From Corynebacterium diphtheriae (GTDB lineage: Bacteria; Actinomycetota; Actinomycetes; Mycobacteriales; Mycobacteriaceae): a stretch of DNA of 64,000 nt. Under the pieces are notes generated by a model. The model searched no databases. It saw only the letters and a list, made by a program, of their open reading frames with translations, and had not been told where the DNA came from. The position numbers and the translations under genes are program-made. The stretch is from NCBI RefSeq assembly GCF_001457455.1, contig NZ_LN831026.1, positions 1,612,001-1,676,000 on the forward strand, given 5' to 3'. Of the stretch, positions 20,675 through 23,523 are shown in pieces. Numbering within the stretch: position 1 is the first letter of the stretch; each line of letters starts with the position of its first letter.

Positions 20675-20760
20675 TTATCCCCTTTCTCGAGCTTATTCAC
20701 ATGCCCTGAGACACATGTTGTTGGGTCTTTAGGTAGTAAAGGCGGGGTCTACACAGAGCC

Positions 20761-20822
20761 CTGACTGGTACGCTCCATGCTCTGATATCGGGGAAGTACA
20801 CCAGAGCACGGCGTCCAGTCAG
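20761..20822. repeat. Two-part long hairpin between mraZ and rsmH
   Basis: The outer arms CTGACTGG-ACGC and GCGT-CCAGTCAG, with one bulged base, enclose an inner helix TGCTCTG/CAGAGCA around an 18-nt loop. There is no T-run on either side, so it is not a simple terminator. It lies in the mraZ-rsmH transcript and could be a processing or stability element. Confidence 0.7.
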
Positions 20823-20856
20823 AGTTCATGCGTATACTCCGCATACTCACACTGAC

Positions 20857-21760: not shown

Positions 21761-21849
21761 ACCTCCCATTACGTTGTTGGCAGTTCCGCTTAAAGGAGCC
21801 CAGGATTCGTACTCCTAGCCCCATGCTGGGGCAGGCTATGTTTATCTGC

Positions 21850-22045
21850 GTTCCTTCTGCCTTGTGGCAGCGGAACTAGTCGCTGGCTTCGGTATGGCTT
21901 ATTTTCGTCCCTGTTAAGAAAATGATCCGGGGGGGTGATGCCGCCGAAGGCAGTGACATACTCCAAACTGCTAATAGGAACCTGACCCGCACACAATGTG
22001 CGAGGTCTCAAAGTAATGTGGATGCCAGCGTGAAGTATGTCCGAC
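21850..22045 (+). ncRNA. Candidate bridge RNA of the IS110 element
   Basis: Three domains can be folded by eye. A 5' hairpin GTTCC-CTGCC/GGCAG-GGAAC lies at 21850-21876. A stem CTGGCTTCGG/CCGAAGGCAG (21883-21892 with 21944-21953, one mismatch) encloses a large internal loop and an inner hairpin ATTTTC/GAAAAT. A second stem GACATACT/AGTATGTC (21955-21962 with 22034-22041) encloses another internal loop and the inner hairpin GACC-GCAC/GTGC-GGTC. This is the target-loop then donor-loop layout of IS110 bridge RNAs. The second loop matches both element ends (ATAGGAACCT at 21974; GTAATG against CATTAC at the left end). RNA ends are unknown. Confidence 0.75.
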
Positions 22046-22097
22046 CACCAGCGATGAAATAAGTCCCATACTCATTCAATTCGCTAGGAGGTCAGAC

Positions 22098-23306
22098 ATG
22101 ACCTACGACTATGTCATCGGCATGGACGCCTGCAAATACTTTCACCACGCTTGCGTCTTAGATATCGACGGCACCCAGGTGCTATCTAAGCGCATCAATC
22201 AAAATGAACAATCCCTGCGCGCACTGTTTTCAGCGTTCAGCGCATACGACCACAAGGTCCTTGTCGTCGTGGACCAGCCCAATAACATTGGGCGACTAAC
22301 TGTCGCAGTTGCCCAAGATATCGGAATCGACGTGCGCTACCTTCCAGGTTTGGCTATGCGTCAACTCTCACGCATCCACGCTGGTAATGCCAAAACTGAT
22401 ATCCGGGATGCATATATCATCGCCCACGCTGCAAAGAACCTTCCGGAATCCCTCCGCAGTGTCGACCGCGTCGAAGAAGCCTTCCTCCAGTTGAAAGTCC
22501 TCAACGGCATCGACGAAGACTTAGCGCGCTCCTACACCAGGCTCATCAATCAGATTCGAAGTGCATTAGTTGGCTGTTACCCGCAATTCGAACAAGCCCT
22601 TCGCGGCCAGATAATCCACCGCAAGTGGGTTCTGCACCTACTTGCACGCTACGGCGGGCCCACCAAAATAAAGCGCTTAGGTAAGGCCAAGGCAGCCGCC
22701 TTTGCTCGACGATATAAGGCACGAAATCCCGAACCTGTCCTCGATGCCATATTCGCTGCCATCTCTGAGCAAACAGTCACTATTGCAGGTGCACACTATG
22801 CCGAAATGGGCGTAGCAATGTCGGCGAAGGACGCACTTTTAAAGCTCGAGCACCGCCAACAAATCGAAAAGGAAGTCATCGAGCTCATCAACGACATCCC
22901 CCACACCCAATTCCTGCTATCCATGCCGGGAATCGGGCCAAAGACAGCTGCCCAAATTCTCATGACCGCGGGCGATATGTCCGACTTTCCGTCAGCTGGG
23001 CACCTAGCCTCCTACGCTGGCTTATCGCCCCGAACGAATCAGTCCGGAACCTCAATCATGTCGAACTCACTGAACCGAGCCGGCAATAAAAAATTAAAGA
23101 ACGCCCTATGGCAATCATCTTTTGCATCCATCAGATTCCACGAGCGTTCCCGGCAATTCTATGAACGAAAGCGCCGTGAAGGCAAAAGGCACAACGCCGC
23201 AGTAGTAGCACTAGCCCGCAGACGACTCAACGTCCTCTACGCCATGATGCGCAACCACGAGCACTACCACGATCCCGCACCATCACAGGAAGACCTAGCA
23301 GCCTAG
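22098..23306 (+). CDS. IS110-family transposase/recombinase
   Basis: 402 residues, apparently intact. The N-terminal DEDD (RuvC-like) domain has D10 in VIGMDACK, D60 in VVVDQPNN and D101/D104 in KTDIRDAY. A coiled middle region follows. The C-terminal Transposase_20 domain has SMPGIGPKTAAQIL, ASYAGLSPRTNQSGTS (catalytic serine expected near 316-319) and RAGNKKLKNALW. The enzyme is expected to act with the bridge RNA encoded just upstream. The ATG has AGGAGG six bases before it. The second acidic residue is Asp here, where the family name implies Glu. Confidence 0.95.
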   Translation: MTYDYVIGMDACKYFHHACVLDIDGTQVLSKRINQNEQSLRALFSAFSAYDHKVLVVVDQPNNIGRLTVAVAQDIGIDVRYLPGLAMRQLSRIHAGNAKTDIRDAYIIAHAAKNLPESLRSVDRVEEAFLQLKVLNGIDEDLARSYTRLINQIRSALVGCYPQFEQALRGQIIHRKWVLHLLARYGGPTKIKRLGKAKAAAFARRYKARNPEPVLDAIFAAISEQTVTIAGAHYAEMGVAMSAKDALLKLEHRQQIEKEVIELINDIPHTQFLLSMPGIGPKTAAQILMTAGDMSDFPSAGHLASYAGLSPRTNQSGTSIMSNSLNRAGNKKLKNALWQSSFASIRFHERSRQFYERKRREGKRHNAAVVALARRRLNVLYAMMRNHEHYHDPAPSQEDLAA

Positions 23307-23320
23307 ACACTAAGAGTAAA

Positions 23321-23354
23321 GCTAGCCGACCGGGTAAAATCCCAGTCGGCTAGC
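23321..23354. repeat. Hairpin after the transposase gene
   Basis: GCTAGCCGAC (23321-23330) and GTCGGCTAGC (23345-23354) form a perfect 10-bp inverted repeat with a 14-nt loop inside the IS right end. No T-run follows, so it may be a transcript 3' end or a structural element of the IS. Confidence 0.6.
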
Positions 23355-23428
23355 TGTCATGCCCGAAAACAAACCCGTCCACACAACCCCACAGAGAGAA
23401 TCCGCCCCCGATTTCTCCACCCGCGAGG

Positions 23429-23434
23429 TTGACA
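23429..23434 (+). promoter_or_regulatory. Outward -35 box in the IS right end
   Basis: A consensus TTGACA lies 14 bp before the right end. In an excised circle it would sit 18 bp from CATTAC of the left end, giving a junction promoter reading into the guide RNA and transposase. Such junction promoters are known for circularising IS families, including IS110 members. Confidence 0.45.
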
Positions 23435-23455
23435 ACCTATATAGGAACACCCCCC

Positions 23456-23501
23456 ATAAAAAAACTCGGGTGCCATCACTTTTTCAGTGATGGCACCCGA
23501 G
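23456..23501 (-). terminator. Terminator of the DUF3040 gene
   Basis: CTCGGGTGCCATCACT (23465-23480) pairs perfectly with AGTGATGGCACCCGAG (23486-23501). On the minus strand the hairpin is followed by a run of seven T residues. Confidence 0.92.
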
Positions 23502-23523
23502 TGGTGCGCGCTACCCGATGAAT

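Follow-up and report, generated by a model that had tools for sequence, protein, structure and literature searches.

The IS110 element found at positions 21765-23449 on the plus strand of the window, i.e. the whole stretch of 64,000 nucleotides that was analysed, probably encodes a bridge RNA in its left end, of which the donor loop would read both sides of the element's own junction and the target loop would read its target essentially by way of a G run in its right arm. What can be seen directly in the sequences is that the fold shows covariation, that the donor guides change in step with the ends of the element, that insertion is at C runs and that the left flanks carry little information, and we infer in addition that the RNA is transcribed and bound by the recombinase, that the core is CC, that a UG acts as handshake and that the left target guide has lost its function. 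Whether this amounts to a widespread IS110 lineage with a one-armed target loop, in which the G-run right guide alone selects the site, the left guide is vestigial and insertions leave an adjacent usable target, is in our judgment an evenly balanced question.

The assignment to IS110, also made in a preliminary description of this DNA, agrees with the domain-model matches of the recombinase gene at 22098-23306 on the plus strand, which is intact and encodes 402 amino acids, since PF01548 (the N-terminal DEDD domain, 138.8 bits), PF02371 (the C-terminal IS110 domain, 89.5 bits) and NF033542 (205.4 bits, cut-off 140) are all over their cut-offs. The C-terminal portion of the protein furthermore resembles the structures of ISCro4 and IS621. 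The TIGR-Tas endonuclease model NF052498 scores 46.4 bits on the same gene, below its cut-off of 100. The host genome, a single contig of 2.46 Mb, holds a second full copy of the element at 684517-686200, the 1684 nt of which are identical to the window copy, the other matches in this genome being a piece of the open reading frame (87%) and a right-end piece of 31 nt, and some match to the element is found in 75 of the 201 genomes of the genus that were searched. An mraW RNA (RF01746, 68.3 bits with a gathering score of 50) lies at 20736-20844 on the minus strand, between the mraZ-like and mraW-like genes of a cluster just past which the element is inserted, and a strong terminator-like hairpin is found at 23464-23502, just right of the insertion.

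The ends of the element follow from its two genomic copies, from ends found throughout the genus and from the unoccupied site of a related insertion. In the two identical copies the left flanks read ...GGGGAACCT and ...GGGATACAC, respectively, both being followed by CCCATTACG, and on the right both copies end in TATAGGAACA followed by C6, which in the window is the target run at 23450-23455. In Corynebacterium copies with both flanks, GGAA[C/T] is followed by A in 36 of 36 and then by CCC in 36 of 36, and the left end likewise begins with CCC in 52 of the 54 insertions with both ends read (35 from Corynebacterium and 19 others), the exceptions being L017 (CAC) and L070 (GAC), of which the former looks like a left end altered later, because L098, with the same left flank, reads CCC. 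The empty site of the related insertion L061, found in another genome, is GATGTCCCCCCCCCGATCG with a run of C9 and equals both flanks joined, so that the element runs from CCCATTACG to GGAACA, CCC being common to element and target. Among the close empty sites for this insertion L129 equals the joined flanks, the C runs are shorter in L130 and L131 and interrupted in L132 and L133. No empty site for the window copy was found among 81 genomes, and for L049 the matches listed from 61 genomes cover one flank or the other, none clearly spanning the junction. As CCC at 21765-21767 is common with CCC at 23450-23452, the ends are uncertain by up to three Cs.

These ends differ from those previously put forward, according to which CT at 21763 formed the left end and the second loop was identical over 10 nt to the joined ends. 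CT at 21763-21764 belongs instead to the target DNA, and the match to the junction extends over 8 nt, since the otherwise identical second copy reads AC here and since both the genus-wide ends and the empty site of L061 agree. The ATAGGAACCT of the loop is indeed present at 21974-21983, and so are ATAGGAAC at 23441-23448 and CATTAC at 21767-21772, but the loop matches the predicted junction over ATAGGAAC only, after which the junction continues with A and C and the loop with C and T, and the remaining 2 nt of the supposed identity are a coincidence. The notion that the match by itself fixes the ends must therefore be given up, as relying on it had drawn the element 2 nt too long on the left and 1 nt too short on the right. 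With the right end (left donor) ATAGGAACA at 23441-23449, placed from its own sequence and the genus-wide ends, the circle junction is predicted to read ATAGGAACA-CCC-ATTACG, a prediction made from the ends, the empty site of L061 and locus L010.

Upstream of the recombinase gene, on the plus strand, a 5' stem-loop at 21850-21876, seen in the single-sequence fold, is followed by a target-binding loop at 21881-21955 (stem 21881-21892/21944-21955, inner part 21895-21898/21940-21943) and a donor-binding loop at 21955-22041 with an outer stem at 21955-21962/22034-22041 and an inner hairpin at 21984-22007. The stems previously described at 21883-21892/21944-21953 and 21955-21962/22034-22041 are thus borne out, and so is the bridge-RNA-like nature of the fold, in that the left-end stretch of 201 nt folds better than dinucleotide shuffles (z -2.62, equalled by 2 of 200 shuffles) and stems covary across relatives. 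In the target-loop stem and the donor inner stem, 98.5% of the cells are paired in 45 distinct relatives as opposed to 30-52% in slid controls and 89.7% in shuffles, the latter control being weakened by the relatedness of the sequences, and 10 of the 19 pairs show changes on both sides. Covariation of this kind is found for these two stems. The donor outer stem does not stay in register from clade to clade in the 45-row alignment; taken row by row a helix of at least six pairs is nevertheless formed in 44 of the 45 relatives, by 21 different helices, and 36 of the 45 rows are equalled by at most 5% of shuffles, the exceptions being L015, L086 and seven diverged rows. The alignment leaves out 14 loci in which the motif search missed one or both loops. 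At the gathering threshold Rfam gives no bridge-RNA match in the window, the mraW RNA being its sole match.

The donor loop would be expected to carry guides for the element's own ends, the left one identical to the right end and the right one complementary to the left end. A left donor guide ATAGGAAC is found at 21974-21981 and a right donor guide GTAATG-T-GG at 22013-22021, in which GTAATG (22013-22018) is complementary to CATTAC at 21767-21772, as had been noted before, and -T-GG is a putative extension. Copies with ends that mismatch the loop were sought, and although the outcome speaks against CT as an end it agrees with the proposal that the second loop matches both ends, since in 53 of 54 copies all 8 nt of the left guide are the same as in the right end and the right guide, located in 68 of 78 copies, is complementary over the 6 nt of GTAAYG in 63 of the 68; the base after the 8-nt left guide matches in only 18 of 54. 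The guides were found by motif search, which biases these counts to copies that retain the motif. By simple arithmetic an exact 8-mer is expected by chance within about 180 nt in some 0.3% of cases and a 6-mer in some 4%, before the correct loop arms are required. Both guides furthermore change with the ends between clades, so that ATAGGAAC in guide and end is accompanied by CATTAC in the Corynebacterium clade and ATAGGGAC with CGTTAC in a diverged clade of 19 relatives at 44-46% protein identity, of which L118 has ATAAGGAC in both donor guide and end, and ATAGGGGC is found on both sides in Streptomyces phage TurkishDelight and AATAGGGG in E. coli ISEc20, though this covariation comprises few independent events. 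As counter-examples, four copies with CATTTC retain GTAATG, and L095 has GTAATA. In the C. parakroppenstedtii relative L018 (2640-4400, 38% identical) the target loop still has its G run but the ends fit the donor loop poorly; it is either damaged or differently built, and as its left end was not picked up it is outside all counts.

The G run and the C-run target go beyond what had been observed previously. The 3' arm of the target loop carries a G7 run at 21929-21935, identified from the alignment and the guide table, and among 70 readable copies 64 have a run of G5 to G8 there. On the DNA side, the run right of the element holds at least five Cs in 52 of the 54 insertions (C4 in 2, C5 in 9, C6 in 21, C7 in 15, C8 in 5 and C9 in 2). 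In these counts L009, L011, L012, L013 and L014, which are the same records as other loci, were dropped beforehand, as were L087 (flank like that of L071) and L110 (left end unread), L010, whose flanks come from two copies, is within the 36 and outside the 54, and L072 and L088, similar sequences in two genomes, may be one ancestral site counted twice. Runs of C4 alone are also seen on the right of L178 and L169, and L174, a damaged relative of ISEc20, has CTCCCC. C-run target sites are rare, since away from the element the window holds 48 runs of at least five Cs, 2 of them being C6 or longer, and in the genome as a whole C6 occurs at 189 places, counted with overlaps and on both strands. The G run would thus serve as the right target guide by pairing with the C run in the target top strand, a proposal drawn from complementarity and not from covariation, because the G run is nearly constant. 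Its length varies among copies (G5 to G8, one AG8), and being a homopolymer it could slip; tabulated against the length of the target C run in the 54 insertions, the length shows no clear relation.

An alternative that we consider unlikely is that the C run is read by the recombinase or through DNA structure and that the G run serves folding by pairing with the CCC of the left arm. The consensus fold does pair this CCC (columns 30-32) with GGG (columns 54-56), each pair being formed in 44 of 45 rows, and two copies with GGCCGG in place of the G run, L074 and L075, are still located at C6 and C5, respectively (L095, with AGGGGG, sits at CCCCA). The G run is however found in the very arm, the 3' arm of this loop, that in IS621 reads the right side of the target top strand.

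The left side of the target is poorly informative, since among the 54 insertions position -1 (C32 T12 A5 G5) holds 0.43 bit and position -2 (C24 T17 A10 G3) 0.27 bit, no other left-flank position being over 0.14 bit. In the 5' arm of the target loop the sequence is itself variable upstream of an invariant CCC at 21909-21911, which we interpret, from the alignment, as the part of the left target guide nearest the core. The bias at -1 and -2 lends some substance to the strongest competing explanation, to which we give a smaller but appreciable probability, namely that this is an ordinary two-armed bridge RNA whose left guide pairs loosely with the left flank, at one or two positions close to the core, which would blur the preference without abolishing it. 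In support of this, position -1 is C in 15 of the 19 diverged copies, where the left arm has four or more Cs, as compared to 17 of 35 in Corynebacterium, and base identity between left arm and left flank is slightly in excess of shuffles (p 0.039 and 0.003 in two registers for all copies, 0.25 and 0.034 within clades). However, the left arm matches just 2.1-2.4 of the 7 left positions of its own flank (n=54), and the left flanks of same-genome copies are no more alike than those of random pairs (agreement 2.65/10 in 17 pairs as opposed to 2.75/10), even though the left-end RNA stretches are identical in 16 of these 17 pairs and differ once in the remaining pair. In genome G534, of the same class as the host, one 200-nt stretch is shared without change by six copies, each of which has a different left flank, the right runs being C4 in one, C6 in four and C7 in one. 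The left target guide is thus not complementary to the left target, which bars the term IS621-like for the target loop but not membership of IS110. That the left end is decayed or unexpressed and the fold a relic is highly improbable, since, although no promoter-like site was found on the plus strand around the left end in a scan that is blind to the circle junction, the stems covary and the two identical copies at different host sites and the six in G534 suggest recent movement. A possible -35 box of a circle-junction promoter is the TTGACA at 23429-23434 on the plus strand near the right end (TTGAC in 54 of 54 right ends), its spacing to a TAC-type -10 being 19-20 nt in the 7 copies examined, with an unconvincing -10 side.

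In the one-armed reading the left arm of the target loop would contribute the invariant CCC beside a likely CC core and make scant demand on the left flank, and strand exchange would most likely take place within the Cs common to donor and target. By position relative to IS621, the G run would correspond to the right target guide, the CCC to the core end of the left guide, and the UG that follows the G run at 21936-21937 to a possible handshake guide pairing with the donor CA. CCC is common to element and target in 52 of 54 left ends, and within it CC is our choice of the two core bases; with such a core the same in donor and target, the right junction would retain the donor A and the left junction the target base. 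Exchange inside CCC is preferred because A is invariant at the right end (54 of 54 copies), in contrast to the variable base on the left of CCC. A core at CT was considered and set aside, CT being target DNA that is AC in the second copy, and a core at CA, although compatible with one IS621-like arrangement of the donor loop, would give donor and target different cores. Since insertion leaves the C run in place at the right end, the site may remain a target, and new copies may therefore land head to tail. At L010 a left-truncated copy is directly followed by a second, new left end, but this junction is 77 nt from the assembled contig end and may be an assembly artefact or come from circle reads.

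Bridge RNAs as such are already known, and in the accessible portions of PMC11208160, PMC11208158 and PMC11187229 they use both sides of the target. The IS621 system, as far as set out in those portions of PMC11208160 and PMC11208158, is alike in having an IS110 recombinase and a left-end bridge RNA with a 5' stem-loop and two internal loops, and in that the 5' arm of the donor loop matches the bottom strand of the junction and the 3' arm the top strand. IS621 however uses both target arms, with a left guide of 9 nt, a right guide of 4 nt and a CT core, whereas the element described here has a C-run target, a nearly free left flank and a likely CC core. The seekRNA elements of PMC11187229, again in its accessible portions, likewise have an RNA from a noncoding end that guides site choice, but the RNAs tested there match both target strands, and in the IS1111 types the RNA lies downstream of the gene. 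The same portions attribute one-sided target logos mainly to misplaced ends; in the present lineage, by contrast, the one-sidedness persists after the ends have been corrected, and one-armed targeting would provide a second explanation for such logos. Among the papers listed in the literature searches, most subscription papers and ISfinder lying outside them, none was found that deals with a C-run-targeting IS110 element or describes a one-sided C-run target. If one guide arm and a homopolymer indeed suffice to place an element, this would show how little target pairing the recombinase needs.

The same C-run layout is also found in relatives across the order of the host, in G534, in a Streptomyces phage and in ISEc20 of E. 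coli. A phylum-wide motif search matched 6 of 396 genomes, of which G534 and G274 hold elements, whereas in the other four no element ends were found around the match, but this is an undercount, as the search misses the window's own element. ISEc20, a name that appears in RefSeq as well as in a phage record, is at least 80% present in 1116 of 5426 E. coli genomes and has the same right end plus C run, G run and type of donor guide, although its host belongs to another phylum and its protein is 42.4% identical to that of the window by tblastn. Twenty loci of this type were read, chosen among the 60 matches listed plus two phage records, and both ends were readable in 17 of them, giving 9 distinct flank pairs, one of which is from phage TurkishDelight. 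In this phage an IS110 recombinase is encoded by gene 49, which carries a hypothetical annotation, and ends of the C-run type can be read. The annotated ISEc20 ends, at L157 and at the E. coli loci L159-L176, take in four Cs on the left and six on the right, and thus include Cs of the target type.
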